Of a DNA stretch of 64,000 nucleotides, positions 1-14,643 are shown piece by piece; positions within the stretch are counted from its first letter, which is position 1; every line of letters begins with the position of its first letter. Origin of the DNA: Planctomyces sp. SH-PL62 (lineage in GTDB: Bacteria; Planctomycetota; Planctomycetia; Isosphaerales; Isosphaeraceae). The stretch spans positions 3,720,001-3,784,000 of the forward strand of contig NZ_CP011273.1 of the NCBI RefSeq assembly GCF_001610895.1. The letters are read 5' to 3'. Both the position numbers and the translations under genes were made by a program. Under the pieces are notes generated by a model. It saw only the letters and a list, made by a program, of their open reading frames with translations, was not told the DNA's origin and made no database searches.

Positions 1-5209
<5,209 letters not shown>

Positions 5210-5258
5210 GCCGAACTCGGGGGCTCCGACCCCCCGCGACGCCCACCTCCGAAACCCG

Positions 5259-5301
5259 ACGGCCCCGGCCGGCGACCTTGACGTCGCCCGGCCGGGGCCG
5301 T
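5259..5301 (+). terminator. Strong hairpin after gltBD
   Basis: An 18-19 bp GC-rich inverted repeat (ACGGCCCCGGCCGG... pairing with ...CCGGCCGGGGCCGT, one-base bulge, loop cttgac) begins 50 bases after the gltD stop. The following bases are T/C-rich but not a clean U-run, so intrinsic termination is likely rather than certain. The rest of the 5210-5520 gap shows no gene; it holds the leader of the porin gene. Confidence 0.7.
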
Positions 5302-5520
5302 TCGCGTTCTCCTCCCCCCCGCGCGTCATGCCCGGACCAATCGGAGCTATTTCGACGAAAGGGATAATCCTTGGAAGCCGTTCATCCGATCATTCTGCCG
5401 GGGGACCGACGCAAAGCGGTCGCGCAGGCGGCCGTGGACGCGTAGGGTCCGAAAGTGGGGTCACGGACGACCCCTGGATCATGGATTCTCGTTACGAGAC
5501 AGGAAGAAAAGAGAGGCCCT

Positions 5521-7146
5521 ATGAGGTACTGGCTCTGGAGACCGCCGAGGCGCTGGGTATGCTGCATGGCCGCCATCCTCGGCGCGTGGTCGGGGACGGC
5601 CTGGGCTCAGGATCCGGGTCGAGGATTCGCGGAAGCCGCCAAACCCAGACCTGCACGAAGGTTCTTCGACCCATCGACGTGGGGCAAGAGCGGGAAGGCT
5701 GCGACGTCCGCGATCCCGGAACCGGGCGGCGGGAATCGCACCGTGCCGGCCCGCGAGGCCCTCGCGACGGCCCCGCCGCGCGACGAGCGCGTGCGGCTCG
5801 TGCAGCAAGAGGCGCCGCCGGACCTCAAACTCCCCGCGTCCGATCGCAACATCGGTGGAGGTGAGCCGTCCTCGGCGAGCGCCGAGGAAGCGATGGCCGC
5901 CGAGGAGGCTCCTGCCGGGGAGGAGGCTCCCGCCGACGATGCCGGGCAGCCGAAGCACCTCCAGGATCTGCTGGGCTTCGATGAATCCCCCGTGAAGATC
6001 TACGGCTGGATTCAGAACAGCTATACCGGCAACACCAACGGCCGGGGCCGGAGCGGCGAGAACTTCGGCGTGAACCCCAATCACAAGGCCAACTGGTGGA
6101 TGGGGAACCAGTACTACGTCGTTGTGGAGAATCCGCTCGAGCAAAACGACGCGATCAACTTCGGCTTTCGCGTCGACAACCTCTTCGGCAACGACTGGCA
6201 GTTCAACTACATGCAGGGCCTGTTCAACGGGGCCTTCCCGCTGAACTCCTTCGCCGGCTACGACATGGCCCAACTCTATGGCGAGGTCCATCTGCCGATC
6301 CTCACCGAGGGAGGACTGGACGTCAAAGGCGGGCGATTCTATACGCTCGCGGGTTATGAACAGGTGCCGGCGATCGCCCGCCCGCTCCTCTCGACCCCTT
6401 ACATGTTCACCTACGGCCAGCCATTCACCCACACCGGCGTCATGACGACGCTGCACCTGACCGACCGGATCAATCTCTTCAACGGCGCCATCAACGGCTG
6501 GGATCGCTTCATCAACGAACGCTATGTATGGGGCTACCTCGGCGGCTTCTCCTGGACCAGCGAGGACGACCGCACCACCCTGGCCATGACCGCCGTCTGG
6601 GGGCCTAATCAGTTCCCTAGCTTCCTCCCCGCAAACCAGCAGATTTATCCGGGAGGCTACGTCAACATCCCGTCGGTCGCCGGCCTCCGCAATCCCGGCT
6701 ACTGGCGCAACGACCGCACGCTGTTCACCTGGGTCGGCACCCACAGGTGGACCGACAAGCTGACGCAGGTCATGGAGACCGACCAGGGGTGGGAGCGGGC
6801 GATCCCCGGCCTCGGCTCGGGCGGCCAGAACGGCGCCCCCCGCGACGCCACCTGGTTCAGCTTCGGCAACTGGTTCCTCTACGAGTTCAACCCCAAGCTC
6901 ACCGGCGTCTGGCGCTCCGAAGTCTTCTGGGACCCCCAGGGGGCGCGGACGCAGAAAATGCTCAACGGCGAATTCGTCGGCGACCGCTTCTATGAGATGA
7001 CCGTGGGCGCGATCTACAAGCCGCACCCGAACCTCTGGATCCGCCCCGAGGCCCGGTACGACTGGTCGCAGTATCACCCGGCCTACACCGACGACACCCG
7101 CAAGAGCCAGTTCACCCTCGGGATCGACGCGATCATCCTCTGGTGA
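5521..7146 (+). CDS. Porin-like outer-membrane beta-barrel protein (BBP2 type)
   Basis: The product is about 541 residues. The start at 5521 is preferred over an upstream in-frame codon because AGAGAGG lies just before it and the N-terminus then forms a signal peptide (basic MRYWLWRPPRR, hydrophobic core, cleavage after TAWA). A low-complexity Ala/Glu/Pro-rich stretch covers about residues 60-145. From about residue 155 (KIYGWIQNSYTGN) the protein is rich in aromatic, alternating strands (YVVVENPLEQND, FGFRVDNLFG, YDMAQLYGEV, GGRFYTLAGYE) typical of the planctomycete BBP2/OmpL-like porins, and it ends in a strand finishing with tryptophan (AIILW). It should sit in the outer membrane. Its place between gltBD and amt suggests it lets a nitrogen compound or ion into the periplasm, but that is inference from position only. 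Confidence 0.8.
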   Translation: MRYWLWRPPRRWVCCMAAILGAWSGTAWAQDPGRGFAEAAKPRPARRFFDPSTWGKSGKAATSAIPEPGGGNRTVPAREALATAPPRDERVRLVQQEAPPDLKLPASDRNIGGGEPSSASAEEAMAAEEAPAGEEAPADDAGQPKHLQDLLGFDESPVKIYGWIQNSYTGNTNGRGRSGENFGVNPNHKANWWMGNQYYVVVENPLEQNDAINFGFRVDNLFGNDWQFNYMQGLFNGAFPLNSFAGYDMAQLYGEVHLPILTEGGLDVKGGRFYTLAGYEQVPAIARPLLSTPYMFTYGQPFTHTGVMTTLHLTDRINLFNGAINGWDRFINERYVWGYLGGFSWTSEDDRTTLAMTAVWGPNQFPSFLPANQQIYPGGYVNIPSVAGLRNPGYWRNDRTLFTWVGTHRWTDKLTQVMETDQGWERAIPGLGSGGQNGAPRDATWFSFGNWFLYEFNPKLTGVWRSEVFWDPQGARTQKMLNGEFVGDRFYEMTVGAIYKPHPNLWIRPEARYDWSQYHPAYTDDTRKSQFTLGIDAIILW

Positions 7147-7338
7147 TCCGACCATACCTTCTGCCTTTCTCCGCGGCGTCCCTCTCCCGCCGCGTTTCAT
7201 CTCCGCTTCGATGCCCCTCGGCGCCTTCCCCTCCTGCCGTGATTCGCCCCTCGAACACCCCGCCGCGGCGTCCCTCCGCGCCGCGCACCCACGCTTCACA
7301 AGCGGCGTCCCGCCTTCTCCTCGCGACTTTTCGGCGAC

Positions 7339-7538: not shown

Positions 7539-8927
7539 ATGAAACGTGCAGCGACCCCCTTCCTCCTCCTGGTAGCCCTGGCGGTCCTCGCCCTGATCCC
7601 GTTCAATCTGGGGAGGGAGCTGCCCGCCGGCAACGAGCCGAATTCGGGCGACGTGGCCTGGATGCTGACGGCGTCGGCCCTGGTCCTGCTGATGACCCCG
7701 GGGCTCTCGTTCTTCTACGGCGGCATGGTCGGCAGCAAGAACGTCGTCTCCACGATGCTCCAGAGCGTGATCGCCCTGGGGGTCATCAGCCTGCTCTGGG
7801 TCTTCGTCGGCTTCAGCCTGGCGTTCGGCGACGACGTCGGCGGCATCATCGGCGACCCCCGGACGTTCTTCATGTTCGACAACGACGTCGCCGGCACGAT
7901 CACCCTGGGCCAGGGGGACGCAGCCGTGAAGATGGGGATCCCGCTCCTCCTCTTCTCGATGTTCCAGCTGAAGTTCGCGATCATCACGCCGGCCCTGATC
8001 ACCGGCTCGTTCGCCGAGCGGGTGCGGTTCTCGGCCTACCTGCTGTTCATGGTGCTGTTCAGCCTGATCATCTACTCGCCGCTGGCCCACATGACCTGGC
8101 ACCCCCAGGGCCTGTTCGCCGCGTGGGGCGTTAAGGACTTCGCCGGCGGGACCGTGGTCCACATGTCGGCGGGCTTCGCGGCCCTGGCCGGGGCGATGTT
8201 CCTGGGCCGCCGCAAGAGTCACATCAACAACGTGGCGCATGAACCGGCGAACATCCCGTACGTCCTGCTCGGGACGGGCATGCTCTGGTTCGGCTGGTTC
8301 GGCTTCAACGCCGGCTCGGCCCTCGCCGCCGACAAGGTGGCCACCCTGGCGTTCGCGACGACCAACACGGCCTCGGCCATGGCGATGCTCGGCTGGATGT
8401 TCTTCGACTGGATGCGCGGCAAGAAGCCCTCGGCGATGGGAGCCTGCATCGGCGCCGTCGTCGGCCTGGTGGCCATCACCCCGGCCGCCGGCTTCGTCAC
8501 GGTCCGACACAGCCTCGTGATCGGCCTGGTCGCCGGCGTGGTCTCCAACCTCGCGGTCTCGATGAAGACCAGGTCGACCCTCGACGACACGCTCGACGTC
8601 TTCCCCTGCCACGGCGTCGGCGGCATCGTCGGCATGATCGCCACGGGGATCTTCGCCCAGGACGTCGGCCTCTGGTACGGCCAGACAGAGACCTTCAAGT
8701 ACCACATGATCGCCCTGGTCATCGTCGCCGTCTTCTCGTTCTTCGGCTCGCTGGCCCTCTACAAGCTCGTCGATATGATCATCCCGCTTCGCGTCACCGA
8801 CGACCAGGAACAGCTGGGCCTCGACCTCAGCCAGCACGGCGAGGCCGCCTGGCGGCTCAACGGCCTGCTCGCCCACGCCCATCACGACGTGGTCGTCGAA
8901 GAGGCGCTCGTCGCCACCGTCGATTGA
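7539..8927 (+). CDS. amt: Ammonium transporter, Amt family
   Basis: A 462-residue polytopic inner-membrane protein with about 11 transmembrane helices after an N-terminal hydrophobic, possibly cleaved, segment. Family signatures are TPGLSFFYGGMV, the pore-histidine region GGTVVHMSAGFAAL (first conserved His), the Amt signature around FGFNAGSALAAD, and FPCHGVGGIVGMI (second pore His). It conducts ammonium/ammonia into the cytoplasm to feed glutamine synthetase. The start is preceded by AGGA. A terminator hairpin follows, and a sigma-54 type promoter lies upstream. No glnK is visible next to it, which is unusual since amt and glnK are often paired. The assignment is secure. Confidence 0.96.
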   Translation: MKRAATPFLLLVALAVLALIPFNLGRELPAGNEPNSGDVAWMLTASALVLLMTPGLSFFYGGMVGSKNVVSTMLQSVIALGVISLLWVFVGFSLAFGDDVGGIIGDPRTFFMFDNDVAGTITLGQGDAAVKMGIPLLLFSMFQLKFAIITPALITGSFAERVRFSAYLLFMVLFSLIIYSPLAHMTWHPQGLFAAWGVKDFAGGTVVHMSAGFAALAGAMFLGRRKSHINNVAHEPANIPYVLLGTGMLWFGWFGFNAGSALAADKVATLAFATTNTASAMAMLGWMFFDWMRGKKPSAMGACIGAVVGLVAITPAAGFVTVRHSLVIGLVAGVVSNLAVSMKTRSTLDDTLDVFPCHGVGGIVGMIATGIFAQDVGLWYGQTETFKYHMIALVIVAVFSFFGSLALYKLVDMIIPLRVTDDQEQLGLDLSQHGEAAWRLNGLLAHAHHDVVVEEALVATVD

Positions 8928-8969
8928 CCGCGAGTCATCGCCGCTGCATCCTCATGACGTGATCTTATG

Positions 8970-9005
8970 ACGGGATCCTTCCGATTCGCATCGGACGGAT
9001 CCCGT
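8970..9005 (+). terminator. Terminator of amt
   Basis: An inverted repeat with outer arms ACGGGATCC and GGATCCCGT and an inner CCGA/TCGG stem is followed by ttccgttccc. It begins 43 bases after the amt stop and is well placed as the intrinsic terminator. Confidence 0.75.
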
Positions 9006-9218
9006 TTCCGTTCCCTGGGATGCGTTGCGGCGATTACGGGACCGACGCCGATGCCCCAGCCCGCTTGATTCAAGGCAGACGACGCCTGCCGAGCGGCAGA
9101 TCGTGACGCCGGGACGCGGGGGAGTCAGGCGCGGTCGCAGAATATGCCCCTGGGTCGGGAAAGCGGGACCAGGCCGTGATCGGACCTTTCGATCGGCCGG
9201 TCCTTTCGAAACGAAAAC

Positions 9219-9240
9219 GGGGGACGCCGTAGCGTCCCCC
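9219..9240 (-). terminator. Original terminator of glnA, now separated from it
   Basis: A perfect 9-bp stem (GGGGGACGC / GCGTCCCCC, loop cgta) is followed, on the minus strand, by GTTTTCGTTTCG, which is a U-rich run. It therefore terminates leftward transcription. No leftward gene ends next to it now. It lies 18 bases outside the left repeat of the mobile element, where the glnA 3' end would have been before insertion. I infer it is the ancestral glnA terminator. Confidence 0.7.
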
Positions 9241-9258
9241 GCCCTGGGTTCATCAGGA

Positions 9259-9277
9259 TTACTTGATGAACAGCATC
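9259..9277. repeat. Left attachment site (attL)
   Basis: TTACTTGATGAACAGCATC is identical to the last 19 bases of glnA at 12451-12469; the bases on either side differ. It lies within a short inverted repeat, TTCATCA-N8-TGATGAA (9249-9270), as expected for the core binding sites of a tyrosine recombinase. Confidence 0.85.
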
Positions 9278-9305
9278 ACTCAAGTTACGCTGTAGGTTGC
9301 GATTG

Positions 9306-9376
9306 TGTAACAGGTTACGCCAAGGGTTTACCAACGGTCAAGGGTAAAGGCCGGTATGCGACACTTGTAACAGGTT
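9306..9376. repeat. Direct repeats TGTAACAGGTT (candidate arm sites)
   Basis: The 11-mer TGTAACAGGTT occurs at 9306-9316 and again at 9366-9376, 60 bases apart and just inside the left attachment site. The first copy also forms GTAAC-AG-GTTAC. Repeats at this distance from an att core could be arm-type recombinase or accessory-factor sites, or part of a replication origin. The function is inference. Confidence 0.4.
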
Positions 9377-9590
9377 TGGCTTGTGTTAAGATGGGAAATA
9401 TGGGAGTTGTAGGATGGTTGCCTGCAAGGTTGCTTTGAACGTATGCTCAGTAGTGGGTTTGAAAACATAAGTCCATGGTTGCTTGCATGAGGGATTGGGT
9501 TTGCAGGGCTAGGTTCGTCCTCCCTCCCTTCGGTCGGTGCGGAGCCGATGGGCCTGCGGCCCACCGACTGTCTTTGCCCACAAGGGCTTA

Positions 9591-9607
9591 GGTCAAGTCT
9601 ATTGACC
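9591..9607. promoter_or_regulatory. Inverted repeat GGTCAA-N5-TTGACC inside the element
   Basis: Perfect 6-bp arms around gtcta. Immediately left of it, 9530-9570 contains another structured stretch (GTCGGTG ... CACCGAC with inner GGGCC/GGCCC). These are downstream of the last leftward gene of the element and may be a terminator, an operator or a replication structure. The remainder of 9278-9691 shows no convincing gene. Confidence 0.35.
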
Positions 9608-9691
9608 ATGTGATAACGTCAGGAATTGTTAATGTGATTAACAAGGCCAGGCCAGCAAACCAAAAATTGTGGCGGAATCTGGGCGGTCTGG

Positions 9692-10108
9692 TCAGGTTAA
9701 CAAGGGCTTGAGGGCGATGGGGGTTCGCCATAAAAAATTGTGGGCCGCAAGCGTCCGACGGAGAAAAGTTATAGCTGCGGGCTTATATGACGACCTAAGC
9801 ATGAGCAGGCATGCTGATGCGTTGGTTCGTTCGCCGCTGGGCGTCTGGCAACTGTCAGGAGTGTCGGTAATATTGATCTTACTTGTGGGAGCCGGTTCGC
9901 CGCCTGATCTGGGGGCGATACCAGCCGTTGAACGATGCCGATCCGTCCGACAGGGTTTCCCCCTGGTCTGGACGGCCTGGGAGCTGTCCAATACGTCCCT
10001 CATGTACTCTGGGCTGACCCCCCACTTCTGGGCGTAGTCGGACAGGCCGACAGCCTCATCGGCCGACCTGGGAAGACGGCTGACGAACCTATGCCTGTCC
10101 GCCTCCAT
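9692..10108 (-). CDS. Small protein of the element, possible helix-turn-helix
   Basis: A 138-residue frame begins 4 bases after the stop of the Rep-like gene, with AGGTGAGG immediately before its ATG, so translation is likely coupled. Residues about 22-42 (LSDYAQKWGVSPEYMRDVLD) have the spacing of a DNA-binding helix-turn-helix, compatible with an excisionase or copy-control protein. The C-terminal two thirds are low in recognisable structure. No family is recognised. The evidence that it is a gene is its ribosome site and position, not homology. Confidence 0.45.
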   Translation of the reverse strand: MEADRHRFVSRLPRSADEAVGLSDYAQKWGVSPEYMRDVLDSSQAVQTRGKPCRTDRHRSTAGIAPRSGGEPAPTSKINITDTPDSCQTPSGERTNASACLLMLRSSYKPAAITFLRRTLAAHNFLWRTPIALKPLLT

Positions 10109-10112
10109 GTCC

Positions 10113-10985
10113 TCACCTGGGACGTAGACTCTCTGACACTTGTCCTGAGTGGTCGTAAGTTCTATCTTGCTTGTTGGGAGCCGGTTCCGGCTTAGTCAGC
10201 GCCAACCACTCCCTGATGACCTTGGCCCAGACCTCATCGGCTGATGTGTCGCCCCAGAATCCAGCCGTCGCCCATGTGCATTCCAGACCGGACGATGAGG
10301 GCAGGTAGTGGGCCTGATCCCTGACCCTGGCGACCGGCTTGGCCTGGTAGTGGGCCGACGCCTCAATGTCGCCTGGGACGACCAGGCTCAGACGACGACC
10401 CCCAGCCCTGACCCATGCCTTCGCCCAGAAGTCATGCAGGGGCGTCAGGGGGGCGTTCGTCCAGACCCCCACATCCCAGTGGCAAGCGTCAGGGGCCGTA
10501 ACATGGATCGTCCCATGAACTTGGACGACGTAACCATGACGGTCGGCCCATCGCTTGATTGATTTCAGGAACTTGGCCCTGGCGTCCCTGTGCATGCTTG
10601 CAGTTGAGCCGGCGGCCATCATCAGGTTGCCGGTCAGGACTTGGTATCCCTTGGCTTGCTGGTCGGACAAGTGCCTAGAAAGACATGTCCCCAACTTCCT
10701 TGACCAGTTCTTCTGACAGTCCAGGGAGCACCTGGGATTGCGACACTTGCAGACGTATCCCTTTTGTTGGCTTAGACTTCGGAAATGACTTGCGGCCCTG
10801 CATGTGTACCTGGGATTTTGCTGTGCGAACTGATTGGTGTTTGAGATACTTACATGAGTCAAGGTTGTTGATCCTATCGCCCTGGCAGGGGCACATATTC
10901 TGGGGCCTGGATGGTTTCGTCGCCATTCAGGCCCTTTCTCTTTCTCATGTAGCCATTCCTTTATTGGCTTTGCATTGCAAAGCAT
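10113..10985 (-). CDS. Rep-like (possible rolling-circle initiator) protein
   Basis: The frame is 290 residues; the true N-terminus is uncertain because the first 60 residues look poorly conserved and a palindrome overlaps the start. A cysteine cluster at about C79, C81, C86 and C90 (CKCRNPRCSLDC) resembles the zinc-binding region before the catalytic domain of some Rep proteins. Residues 135-175 (KSIKRWADRHGY, VHGTIHVT, CHWDVGVW) resemble the HUH region in order and spacing, but with HWD instead of a strict His-x-His. Tyrosines at 213 and 227 followed by GFWG (242-245) resemble the catalytic-Tyr helix and the RFWG-like motif of such proteins. I infer a replication initiator for the element's excised form. 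It could instead be a different planctomycete-specific DNA-binding family. Confidence 0.55.
   Translation of the reverse strand: MLCNAKPIKEWLHEKEKGPEWRRNHPGPRICAPARAIGSTTLTHVSISNTNQFAQQNPRYTCRAASHFRSLSQQKGYVCKCRNPRCSLDCQKNWSRKLGTCLSRHLSDQQAKGYQVLTGNLMMAAGSTASMHRDARAKFLKSIKRWADRHGYVVQVHGTIHVTAPDACHWDVGVWTNAPLTPLHDFWAKAWVRAGGRRLSLVVPGDIEASAHYQAKPVARVRDQAHYLPSSSGLECTWATAGFWGDTSADEVWAKVIREWLALTKPEPAPNKQDRTYDHSGQVSESLRPR
10968..10982. promoter_or_regulatory. Palindrome overlapping the rep start
   Basis: CTTTGCATTGCAAAG has perfect 7-bp arms around one central base. It covers the first codons of the annotated rep frame. It may be an operator for copy control, in which case the real start is further downstream. 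Confidence 0.35.
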
Positions 10986-11170
10986 TGTGGTTAACCGGAT
11001 TTAATCTTTGCCAGCAAGCCGTCTAGGACGCTCCGGTCTTCCAGGGCCGGTCAGGGGCCTTGTGGGGCGTCCCAGGGGCCTTCTGCGGCGTCTCAGCGGC
11101 CTTGTGGCGGATGATGATGGGGGTGGGATGCCATCGCTTCGCGACGGACATCCCTACCCCTTTCAATCTT

Positions 11171-11225
11171 GGCCGATGGAGGGCCGATGGGGGGCCGATG
11201 GGGGCCGATGGGGGGCCGACGGCCG
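11171..11225. repeat. Iteron-like tandem array GGCCGATGG
   Basis: Four to five copies of GGCCGATGG(R)G in units of 10-11 bases start at about 11171, 11182, 11193, 11203 and 11214, the last degenerate (GGCCGAC, GGCCGAA). The array lies in the gap between the recombinase stop and the rep start. A second, looser repeat with a period of about 21 bases (AGGGGCCTTGTGG variants) occupies 11050-11110. Short tandem repeats directly upstream of a rep gene are the usual layout of a plasmid origin. Confidence 0.6.
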
Positions 11226-11227
11226 AA

Positions 11228-12337
11228 TCAGAAGTGGATATCCTGGACTGCCTGGATTTTGGCCTGATCCCTGACTTGGGCGTACCTTTGGGTGGTCTTC
11301 AAGTTGCGATGACCTAGTTGCCCAGCGATCGTCTGAATGGGGATTTTGGCGTCCACAAGGCTTGTGGCAAGAGTGTGGCGGAGAGCGTGGTTGAAACTGC
11401 CGCCCTTGAAGTCGATCTTGTGCCGCTTCGCAAGTTGGCGGAGATGGTAGTACGACATCGCCGCCGTAGTGCAGGCTGGGAACAGTCTGCCCTTGCCCAT
11501 CCGCCTCTGGAGTACGCCCCAGCCACCGGAAGCCACCGCCGCTGTGTAGCCGATCTTCGCCTTGTCATGCTCTGGCGGCACTTCCACCGTCCAGTTCTTG
11601 CAGTTGATCCAGGACGATTCCATGTGGATCGTCGCCGACACCCTCATGCCGCTGTTCAGCATGAGGATCGCAAGGTCGGCATAGTGGTCAGGAATCTTCC
11701 CTGACTCCCTGTCGGCTTCAACCGCTTCGACGAACGCCTTGACCTGTTCAGGCTCAAGGTACTTCGTCTTCTCTCTTCTGGGATAGGCTTCTCTCAGGAC
11801 AGGAACTACGGCGGAGACAGGGTTGTCCTGGATGATCTTCGCCTTCCTGGCCGCTGAGAACACACCGCTCAGCAACTCCAACTCCGACAGGGCCGTCTGC
11901 GGCTTCACTTTGATCTTGAGACGTGGATCAACCTTGTGGAGACGCCACTGGAAGAACCCCTTGATGACAGCCTCATCTACGTCCTCAAGGCGGTTCAGGC
12001 GGAGATCTCTGGCGTAGGCCAGGAAGTTGTCCTGGATGCCCCTGAGTCGCTTGGACGACCCAGGCCGCTTGTGGAGGCGGTAGTCCTGGAAGTGAGACTC
12101 CATGAACCCCTCTAATGTGGATTTAGAGGGGGACATGGAGTGTGGAACCGGAAGTGTGGACTTCGTTGCCGAATTTGGGCTCAAAAGCCTATCGGCGAGA
12201 ACTTGGACATCGGCAGGGATCGGCTTGCTGGCCTCACCCTGACTTGCTGGGCGGAGAGTATGCCGCTTCTCTTTACCTGCGACCTTTACCTTGACGACCC
12301 AACACCCTCTGGTGTTGTCCAGGAATACGCTTGCCAT
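11228..12337 (-). CDS. Tyrosine recombinase (site-specific integrase)
   Basis: The product is about 369 residues from the ATG at 12337, which has AGAGG before it; an upstream in-frame ATG lacks such a site. An N-terminal SAM-like core-binding domain (residues about 70-165) precedes the catalytic domain. The catalytic set is complete: Arg in SGMRVSA (about R232), Lys in DKAKIG (about 259-261), H-x-x-R in NHALRHT (about H317, R320), His in LGHRNL (about H343) and nucleophile Tyr in TTQRYAQV (about Y352). It lies next to the att repeat at the glnA end, as integrases usually do, and is the likely agent of insertion into glnA. The first 113 bases upstream to the att site hold no other gene. Confidence 0.92.
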   Translation of the reverse strand: MASVFLDNTRGCWVVKVKVAGKEKRHTLRPASQGEASKPIPADVQVLADRLLSPNSATKSTLPVPHSMSPSKSTLEGFMESHFQDYRLHKRPGSSKRLRGIQDNFLAYARDLRLNRLEDVDEAVIKGFFQWRLHKVDPRLKIKVKPQTALSELELLSGVFSAARKAKIIQDNPVSAVVPVLREAYPRREKTKYLEPEQVKAFVEAVEADRESGKIPDHYADLAILMLNSGMRVSATIHMESSWINCKNWTVEVPPEHDKAKIGYTAAVASGGWGVLQRRMGKGRLFPACTTAAMSYYHLRQLAKRHKIDFKGGSFNHALRHTLATSLVDAKIPIQTIAGQLGHRNLKTTQRYAQVRDQAKIQAVQDIHF

Positions 12338-12450
12338 CCATGAGCCTCTTGCTGTCCATCGCAGTGCCTCTAGCGATGAGGAAGCGGGGGCGAACACCTT
12401 GCTCACCCCCATGAAGGCTCATATTAGCAAGTTCACTCATCAAGAGAAAC

Positions 12451-12469
12451 TTACTTGATGAACAGCATC
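12451..12469. repeat. Right attachment site (attR) = glnA 3' end
   Basis: This copy of TTACTTGATGAACAGCATC encodes the last six residues (MLFIK plus the partial codon before) and the stop of glnA on the minus strand. An inverted repeat TCATCAAG-N9-CTTGATGA (12437-12461) spans the element side of the junction. Insertion therefore keeps glnA intact. Confidence 0.85.
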
Positions 12470-14643
12470 TCCTGGTAGGTGGGGAGCGGCCAGAGGTCGC
12501 TGGCGACCAGGCCTTCGAGCTTGTCGCCGGCGGCGCGGACGGCGTTCATCGCGGGGATGACGACGTCGCGCGAGTGCTTGGCGTGATCGAGCGCGGTGCC
12601 TGCGGGGTGCTCCTCGAGGATCTCGGCGAGCTTGTCGGAAGCGGCCTGGAGGTCGTCGACCAGGGCGACCAGCTCGTCGAGCAGGGCGGACTGGTTCTTG
12701 GGGACGGAGAGGCCGGCGGCCTTGAGCTTGGCCAGCGAATCCGCGACTTCGCCCTGATAGCGGAGGGCCGCCGGCAGGATCATCCGGTTGGCGATCTGGA
12801 GCGTGAGGTAGGACTCGACGGTGAGCGTCTTCCGGTAGTTCTCCAGGAAGATCTCGAACCGGGAGTGGAGCTCGCGCTCGCTGAAGACGCCGTACTTGTT
12901 GAAGAGGGCGGTCGATTTGGGCGAGATGAAGTCGGGGAGGCTGTCGACGGTCGAGCGGCGGTTGGGCAGGCCGCGCCGCTCAGCCTCGGCGTGCCAGGCC
13001 TCGCTGTAGTTGTCGCCGTTGAAGATGATATGGCGGGATTCCTTGATGGCCGCCTGGAGGAGCGTCTGGATCTCGGAGTTGAGGTCCTTGCCGGCGGCCA
13101 CGGCGTTCTCAAGCTCGGTGGCCAGGAAGTCGAGGCTCTCGGCGACGACCGTGTTGACGACGATGATCGGGCCGGAGATCGACTGGGCCGAGCCGCAGGC
13201 GCGGAACTCGAACTTGTTGCCGGTGAACGCGAAGGGGCTGGTCCGGTTGCGGTCGCCCGGGTCGCGGGGAAGGATCGGCAGGGTGGAGACGCCGATCTTG
13301 AGCTCGCCCCCCGCCTTGGCCGTGGTGGCGCCCCCCTTGGCGATCTGGTCGACGATGTCCTCGAGCATCTCGCCGAGGAAGATCGAGATGATGGCGGGCG
13401 GGGCCTCGTTGGCGCCGAGCCGGTGATCGTTGCCGGCGTGGGCGACGGCGACTCGGAGCAGGTCGCCGTGCTTGGCGACGGCCCGGATGACGGCGGTCAG
13501 GAAGATCAGGAACTGGGCGTTGCCGTGGGGCGTGGCGCCGGGCTTCAGCAGGTTGTTCCCCAGGTCGTCGGCCATCGACCAGTTGACGTGCTTGCCCGAG
13601 CCGTTGACGCCGGCGAACGGCTTCTCATGCAGGAGCACCTGCAGGCCGTAGCGATCGGCGACCCGCTTGAGCGTCTCCATGATCAGCATGTTGTGATCGG
13701 TGGCGACGTTGGCGCTCTCGAAGACGGGGGCGATCTCGTACTGGGCCGGGGAGACCTCGTTGTGGCGGGTCTTCACCGGGACGCCCAGCTTGTAGAGCTC
13801 GGTCTCGGTCTCGAACATGCAGGCCAGGACGCGCTCGGGGATGGAGCCGAAGTAGTGGTCCTCCATCTCCTGGCCCTTCGGCGGCTTGGCGCCGAAGAGG
13901 GTGCGGCCGGCGTTGATGAGGTCCGGGCGGGCGTAGTAGAAGTTCTTGTCGATCAGGAAGTATTCCTGCTCGGCCCCGGCCGTCGGCGCGACCCGGGTGG
14001 CCGTCGAGCCGAACAGCTTGAGAATTCGGACGGCCTGGGTCGAGAGCGCCTCGACCGAGCGGAGCAGGGGGGTCTTCTTGTCGAGCGCCTCGCCGGTCCA
14101 CGAACAGAAAGCGGTGGGGATGCAGAGGGTGGTGCCGTTGGGGTTGTCGAGGATGAAGGCCGGGCTGGTCGGGTCCCAGGCGGTGTAGCCGCGGGCCTCG
14201 AACGTGGAGCGGATGCCGCCGGAGGGGAAGCTCGACGCGTCGGGCTCGCCCCGGACCAGCTCCGAGCCGCTGAACTCGGCGATGGCCGAGCCGTTCTCGG
14301 TGGGGGACAGGAACGAGTCGTGCTTCTCGGCCGTGAGGCCGGTCATCGGCTGGAACCAGTGGGTGAAGTGGGTGGCGCCCCGCTCCATCGCCCAATCCTT
14401 CATGGCCGTCGCGACGACGTCCGCGACGCACGGATCGAGCGGCTCACCCTTCTTGACCGTGTTCCGCAGCATCCGATAGACGTTCTCGGGCAGCCGCGCC
14501 CGCATCACGTCGTCGGAGAAGACGTTCATGCCGAAGAGCTGGGTGAACGGCGTGGCCGACTTGGGCGCCCTTCGTCCCAGGTTGGTCCATGAGGTGATCG
14601 CCTCGATCGCGGATTGGCGGGCGTTGTCATGGTCGTACGGCAT
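12451..14643 (-). CDS. glnA: Glutamine synthetase, type III
   Basis: A 730-residue cytoplasmic enzyme that makes glutamine from glutamate, ammonia and ATP. Length and sequence match GSIII rather than the about 450-residue GSI: N-terminal [17 protein letters not shown], then [64 protein letters not shown] (ATP-binding glycine-rich region) and [20 protein letters not shown]. It is convergent with amt and close to gltBD, completing the ammonium uptake and GS-GOGAT set. Its last 19 bases are the attachment site of the adjacent mobile element, and the stop codon is regenerated at the junction. Its former terminator is now about 3.2 kb away. Confidence 0.97.

Follow-up and report, generated by a model that had tools for sequence, protein, structure and literature searches.

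Integration into the 3' ends of housekeeping protein genes is an established habit of small mobile elements. In the portions of two papers that deal with streptococcal integrative mobilizable elements (IMEs), such gene ends, including that of rpsI, appear as standard targets, and the sizes given are 5 to 18 kb except for one element of 53 kb (PMC5704250, PMC5357655); for integrated elements of Thaumarchaeota, part of a further report maps 14 of 68 to the 3'-distal parts of protein genes (PMC6563490). Here we describe E1, a 3.2 kb element of Planctomyces sp. SH-PL62 that adjoins the 3' end of glnA, encoding type III glutamine synthetase, in a stretch of 64,000 nucleotides (the window; G000:C1:3720001-3784000, from a host genome of 6.78 Mb in five contigs), together with related elements termed E2 to E5, of which E2 lies in the same genome. 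An original prediction from the sequence of the window had regarded the end of a core-metabolism gene as an unusual target. As protein-gene 3' ends, rpsI included, were already known to be used, the type of target is not unusual and this view was overstated; for glutamine synthetase in particular, the open-licence literature searched yielded no previous description as a target of integration.

Several described systems share parts of the E1 design. Streptococcal IMEs such as IMESag-rpsI resemble E1, E2 and E3 in having a tyrosine integrase and in leaving the host housekeeping gene, rpsI in the case of E2 and E3, intact at its 3' end, and some carry a rolling-circle Rep, as the E1 group putatively does; as described in the relevant sections, however, these elements are larger and have relaxases, whereas E1 has no relaxase match (PMC5704250, PMC5357655). 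The pCRESS groups and unnamed HUH clusters, as presented in part of PMC6668415, are comparable to E1, with its putative HUH-type Rep, as HUH-Rep elements inserted site-specifically in bacterial chromosomes, with direct repeats and without viral structural genes, but their Reps join a nuclease to a helicase domain whereas the 290-amino-acid Rep of E1 has no helicase match; the string 'planctomyc' has 0 occurrences in the main text of that paper. PICMI satellites, in the passages of PMC10803314 that define them, are also very small and combine an integrase with a replication gene and no capsid genes. The AlpA, DUF3987/DUF5906-type primase and fis site that characterize PICMIs in those passages were not found at E1, the neighbours of which are glnA and the ammonium transporter gene amt. 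Cryptic integrated elements of Thaumarchaeota use 3'-distal protein-gene sites as E1 does, and part of PMC6563490 records a rolling-circle Rep in one of them, but these elements are archaeal and were compared with E1 by description only. Among the matches listed for planctomycete integrative elements in the open-licence literature, nothing of the E1 kind was apparent by title. Tn5520 of Bacteroides fragilis resembles E1 in pairing one integrase with one DNA-processing gene; its second gene is reportedly a mobilization protein, and its size is said to be 4.7 kb, larger than E1. An archaeal Rep family treated in PMC13107129 was also considered and has, from the sections that describe it, no bearing on E1. 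We regard the E1 group as a small family that is new within a known kind of element; the original prediction had suggested that it may be a new class of tiny integrative plasmid or satellite.

We interpret E1 as a minimal integrative element of the rolling-circle type, either a small plasmid in its integrated state or a hitchhiker, and assign this reading a probability of about 0.8. Its main parts, with open reading frame abbreviated to ORF, are as follows.

9259-12469, minus strand: integrated element E1 including both repeats; unit of 3192 bp
12451-12469, minus strand: attachment repeat, gene side; provides the final codons and stop of glnA
9259-9277, minus strand: attachment repeat, distal; the flank beyond it is TCCTGATG
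11228-12412, minus strand: int, tyrosine recombinase of 394 amino acids; Phage_integrase PF00589 (E-value 2.2e-17) and SAM-like domain (E-value 1.4e-5)
10113-10985, minus strand: rep, putative HUH-type endonuclease of 290 amino acids; CKCRNPRCS..C...W, HWD at 169-171 (HUD variant), YQAK at 213-216
9692-10108, minus strand: coupled ORF, homologous to the C-terminal part of the E2 Rep; starts 4 nucleotides (nt) past the rep stop in another frame

Two identical 19-nt direct copies of TTACTTGATGAACAGCATC, at 9259-9277 and 12451-12469, set the boundaries exactly as predicted, with a spacing of 3192. The gene-side copy ends glnA, a minus-strand ORF at 12451-14643 with matches to GSIII_N (E-value 1.5e-79) and Gln-synt_C-ter (E-value 1.5e-41), and on the opposite side of E1 lies the plus-strand amt ORF (7539-8927). 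When 9001-12700 was simulated 500 times with a first-order Markov model, no direct repeat exceeded 15 nt, the longest per run averaging 11.5 nt, but such simulations ignore a tandem array that alone yields an 18-nt repeat in this region; the 19-mer is singled out by its exact fit to the glnA end. The guanine-plus-cytosine content is 57.2% within E1 and 68.7% elsewhere in the window, where none of 273 overlapping stretches of equal length was as low (minimum 64.5%). From glnA the gene order is int, rep and the coupled ORF, all on the minus strand, and approximately 0.4 kb at the distal end contains a single 93-codon ORF without matches and no supported gene. Four E1 ORFs were scanned against family models; none matched conjugation proteins or, in Pfam and NCBIfam, a relaxase of a known MOB family, in agreement with the original prediction of no recognizable transfer gene. 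An Rfam scan of 8900-12600 gave no match, and PADLOC, run on E1 and two E3 ORFs, reported nothing.

Occupancy of the site was assessed by joining the E1 flanks by script and comparing the product with the glnA ends of five relatives from the same genus (G028 to G032). All five carry glnA and then amt in the same orientation without E1, and a second copy of the core is absent from each, with at most 8 nt of the core 3' end recurring downstream in the stretch examined. The match to the joined flanks passes the junction by 8 and 11 nt in two relatives and ends 1 to 2 nt past it in three; immediately after the glnA stop, two relatives read TCCCGATG and TCTTGATG, resembling the E1 distal flank, and the other three differ. 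The glnA-amt gap in these relatives is about 0.3 to 2.3 kb, the longest (G028) containing other ORFs and no second core copy, and no Rep match was found in any of the five. A wider survey of glnA ends covered 30 loci including that of the host genome, with the right stop in 19 and a wrong ORF in 11, and the claim of an empty site uses the five genus relatives. Together with the sister elements in rpsI described below, these comparisons bear out the original prediction of a site-specific, minimal int-rep insertion that restores the gene end.

The recombinase looks complete, as predicted: the ORF appears intact, starts 39 nt from the glnA stop on the same strand as glnA, and retains R257, K284, H342, R345 and Y377, which fall in invariant columns of an alignment of five recombinases and which we take to be the catalytic residues. 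The expectation that this recombinase would recur at glnA ends failed, as no copy at another glnA end was found in a sample of 45 genomes of the family and the nearest recombinases there (38%, 30% and 29% identity) lie one at an intergenic repeat and two at rpsI. Recombinase matches occurred in 45 of these 45 genomes and reflect widespread recombinases rather than the element. In the GTDB contig collection the E1 integrase had only one distant match, to a Cytophagales sequence over 47 residues.

The second gene most likely encodes a divergent HUH rolling-circle endonuclease, because its relatives carry H-x-H/D followed by Y-x-x-K and in part match the Pfam family PF23343 (REP_ORF2-G2P) below cut-off, the E1 protein itself having no family match. 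PF23343 was matched by three of the six Rep relatives scanned (E3, E-value 7.8e-6; G020, 5.4e-4; G260, 8.8e-6), all below the curated cut-off, and the other three had no match. In a profile alignment of Rep ORFs from 20 relatives the first motif was present in 20 (H-x-H in 15, H-x-D in 5) and Y-x-x-K in 19; six rows had been part of the profile, the 14 new rows had the first motif in 14 and the second in 13, and, as all 20 were picked by that profile, this agreement is partly built in. The final histidine of the motif is replaced by aspartate in the Reps of E1, E2, E4 and E5. Histidines followed by a tyrosine is the order of Reps and not of relaxases. The E1 Rep had no match in Pfam, PHROGs or PDB and matches only far below cut-off in NCBIfam; a profile search of PDB gave a single weak match, SIRV1 ORF119 (E-value 0.035), which is presumably an HUH rolling-circle Rep. 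The nature of the Rep-like gene of the original prediction is supported through its relatives. The coupled small gene is present as an ORF but looks like a separated Rep domain, being homologous to the C-terminal part of the E2 Rep (E-value 5e-10, 25% identity in a BLASTP of the two alone); its only Pfam match, DUF4680 (E-value 0.009), was below cut-off and was not used, and no helicase family was matched by either the Rep or the coupled ORF. The DNA CTACGTCCCAGGTGAG is common to E1 and E2, but in E1 the reading frame through it differs and reaches a stop at this point. The Rep of E1 may be either split into two coupled genes or decaying.

Sister elements indicate that this arrangement is not confined to one site. 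E2 (L036 7966-11335, equivalent to G000:C1 3329965-3333334) carries int (8101-9255, plus strand) and an unbroken rep (9588-10700, plus strand) between perfect 27-nt repeats (7966-7992 and 11309-11335; spacing 3343 bp) that comprise the end of rpsI plus 3 nt, the rpsI product being, judged from its sequence, ribosomal protein S9. By BLASTP the integrases of E1 and E2 are 26% and the Reps 48% identical. When the E2 flanks are joined, with the junction at position 592, the match extends across it as far as 682 in L100 and 607 in L101, two of five relatives from the genus, and stops at the core in the other three; the distal flank of E2, and not its gene-side flank, matches rpsI-downstream DNA of G030 (E-value 0.001), and the next large gene past the distal side lies downstream of rpsI in three of four genus loci.

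E3, in a different genus (G042, L038), has int at 9420-10655 and rep at 7539-8642, both on the minus strand, beside a plus-strand rpsI (5718-6119). Its repeat of the rpsI end is imperfect, with 13 nt exact, and lies 4667 bp away. Since DNA similar to the E3 distal flank lies next to rpsI in 8 of 28 other loci (E-values 3e-42 to 4e-14), E3 appears to fill a gap between rpsI and its usual neighbour. What counts against this boundary is that the gene-side flank resembles rpsI-downstream DNA of one genome, G017 (E-value 1e-15), where 86 nt after rpsI match E3 (210 nt including the gene end), and the gene-side end of E3 could therefore be partly native. The integrases of E2 and E3 are 45% identical by BLASTP, and by coordinates their int starts lie approximately 109 nt from the core in both.

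The G017 locus was not counted as a further rpsI occupant, as no integrase was found there and a transposase-like fragment was recognized by eye downstream. The likeness is an observation in its own right: L152 687-778 (G017) and L038 6122-6207 (G042) are 79% alike over the 86 nt right after rpsI across two genera, an element being recognized in G042 only, and may be the remains of an element or a native terminator common to both.

E4 (G009:C223, L037) has int at 6138-7193 and rep at 4704-5687, both on the minus strand, within a 15-nt repeat 2989 bp apart. Its site is no recognized gene end, and similar copies occur in that genome (93% and 91% over approximately 30 nt). The original prediction would have been undermined by relatives with the recombinase elsewhere and no repeat; instead, E2, E3 and E4 each have a repeat of their own. 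E5 (G009:C410, L078) carries int together with an HTH_17 gene and a rep that encodes 544 amino acids, and its integrase has no BLASTP match to those of E1 to E4. Between E1 and E4 the integrases are 35% and the Reps 28% identical by BLASTP; compared with the E1 and E2 values, these unequal identities suggest module exchange, int and rep lacking a single shared history. Near E4, a group II intron match (RF00029, 53.2 bits) lies at L037 966-1041.

In the minimal rolling-circle reading, the tyrosine integrase would recombine the 19-bp core with the glnA 3' end, rebuilding the stop codon, and the full glnA reading frame would survive insertion. The excised circle would be copied by the HUH-type Rep, a single tyrosine nicking one strand and driving rolling-circle copying. 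As no transfer gene was recognized, E1 would have to move by other means, for which transduction, mobilization by another element and DNA uptake are candidates.

Several observations weigh against this reading. The E1 Rep fits no family model, three of its six scanned relatives likewise miss PF23343, the second motif histidine is an aspartate in E1, and a single-sequence AlphaFold prediction of the Rep was poor (predicted local distance difference test score 41) and was not used further. The Rep frame is broken relative to E2 and E1 could be decaying, while the E4 integrase may be damaged, with one TGA inside the match and LGQ where others have LGH. The origin-like motif described below lies inside coding sequence, with a stem of at most 4 bp in 100-nt folds. 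Finally, no relative was found among plasmids, phages and viral contigs, where a free-living plasmid or phage might appear: tblastn searches of plasmid and phage collections with the E1 and E3 Reps gave no match, and no Rep or integrase relative was confirmed in IMG/VR.

The alternative that survives best, which we nevertheless consider unlikely, is a phage satellite, in which Int and Rep would excise and replicate E1 upon infection by a helper phage and rolling-circle concatemers would be packaged, as in PICMIs. PICMIs have an integrase, a regulator and a replication gene and form rolling-circle-like concatemers, and HTH_17, found as a gene at the related loci G009:C410 and G538, is one AlpA model there (both from parts of PMC10803314). 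A Rep relative in G020 (L079) lies near an HK97-type capsid ORF (PF05065, E-value 2e-21) and a large serine recombinase, and a capsid ORF is carried on a 12.5-kb contig of the host genome. However, the capsid near the G020 Rep may come from an unrelated prophage remnant, and the four scanned E1 ORFs gave no AlpA-type, primase, capsid or packaging match, a packaging site not having been searched for. The capsid neighbours hint at phage involvement and prove nothing for E1.

A shade less probable is a decaying remnant, in which an integrase that formerly moved a larger island persists with leftovers and mobility has been lost. The displaced frame of the Rep C-terminal domain relative to E2, the 0.4 kb of distal DNA without a supported gene and the single occupied glnA in the family sample would all fit such decay, but the integrase ORF is intact with conserved residues, the repeats are perfect, and E2 (3343 bp, with the same int-rep order and an unbroken Rep) and E4 (2989 bp) are similar in size, so that smallness looks like design. 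The least probable of the three, and in our view doubtful, is a minimal IME whose HUH protein acts as a relaxase and which borrows the channel of a conjugative element; small int-plus-mob elements such as Tn5520 offer a precedent, but the E1 ORFs match no relaxase family, the order of the histidines and tyrosine is that of Reps, and the VirB4-type family PF03135 was found in 0 of 1 host genome and, in a control search, in just 1 of 14 genomes, so that no such conjugative helper was seen. Streptococcal IMEs, in the sections cited, also speak for this possibility through Rep-related relaxases and integration in the rpsI 3' end (PMC5704250, PMC5357655). An insertion sequence or transposon was rejected for the lack of a transposase match and the presence of a tyrosine recombinase with a gene-end core, and an integrative and conjugative element for the lack of conjugation genes.

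Beyond E1 itself, we find it slightly better than an even chance that these loci represent an undescribed two-gene mobile family of this bacterial class, combining an integrase of changeable target (glnA or rpsI 3' ends, or an intergenic repeat) with a divergent HUD-type Rep, exchanging int and rep, and standing at or near the smallest autonomous-looking integrative design. If active, E1 would show that an integrative element can manage with a recombinase, a nicking enzyme and a host gene end left whole by the insertion. Target choice is open to direct testing, one genome holding two sister elements with different targets, and the Rep family, unnamed in the libraries used, could be a starting point for vectors in bacteria for which genetic tools are scarce.

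The distribution of the Rep depended on the query, every count including the host. With E1 Rep as the sole query, only the host was found among 392 genomes sampled across the phylum; a four-row profile found 2 of 392 in the phylum sample and 4 of 45 in the family, and a seven-row profile 17 of 397 genomes sampled in the class. Of 14 further Rep loci, eight had their ORFs inspected; Pfam confirmed a recombinase close to rep at four, a tyrosine recombinase at L138, L139 and L141 and a serine recombinase at L135. Two profile matches, an integrase ORF at L142 that is antisense to rep and a short fragment at L143, were not counted. Judged from these gene neighbourhoods, the Rep is associated with more than one type of recombinase, the compact int-rep arrangement being a single branch.

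Further features of E1 lie between its genes and at its distal end.

11171-11219, no strand: 11-bp tandem repeat, 4.5 copies, between int and rep; candidate Rep-binding or promoter region
11052-11107, no strand: 21-bp tandem repeat, 2.7 copies, between int and rep; with the 11-bp array, the candidate counterpart of the predicted iteron-like repeats
9858-9877, minus strand: motif ATCAATATTACCGACACTCC, a near-match to a motif found twice in E2; candidate replication-origin site
10147-10168, minus strand: diverged first copy of the ATCAATATTACCGACACTCC motif, seen by eye, on the other side of the C-terminal domain; putative role
9306-9376, no strand: 11-nt direct repeat TGTAACAGGTT at 9306 and 9366; candidate arm-type integrase sites
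9201-9258, minus strand: hairpin and T-rich tail just past the distal repeat; an inverted repeat in the sequence

The motif AAT[A/C]TTACCGACACTCC lies beside the Rep C-terminal domain in both E1 and E2, with two copies in E2 inside a 36-nt perfect repeat and one good plus one diverged copy (by eye) in E1, and could be an origin site. The hairpin at 9201-9258, which a terminator scan did not list, is probably the native glnA terminator, displaced 3.2 kb from its gene. Its displacement would leave int downstream of glnA without an intervening terminator, and read-through from glnA could then express int; such expression would not be general, because the E2 int points against rpsI.

Some minor observations concern phage-like DNA and other Rep loci. 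The single capsid-family match in the host genome is on contig G000:C5 (L154, 12,514 bp), where an HK97-type capsid ORF (8642-9760) matches the PHROG major head protein (E-value 3.6e-24). A primase ORF runs off one end of this contig and a primase N-terminal part lies near the other, so that it is perhaps circular, and a helix-turn-helix ORF is weakly excisionase-like (E-value 0.0016); from this gene content G000:C5 is possibly a phage-plasmid or capsid-encoding satellite. Its capsid is 26% identical over 274 aligned positions to that in L079 (2243-8332, G020:C382). The loci L135 (G725) and L136 (G602) have a similar layout in two genera, in which a Rep of the E1 family accompanies an ORF of secreted appearance and two ORFs of serine-recombinase type, those of L135 being the ones scanned with Pfam, and may be a different mobile element using this Rep. 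At L138 5241-7121 (G641:C36), an ORF with matches to radical SAM, intein splicing and HNH families adjoins an E1-family Rep.

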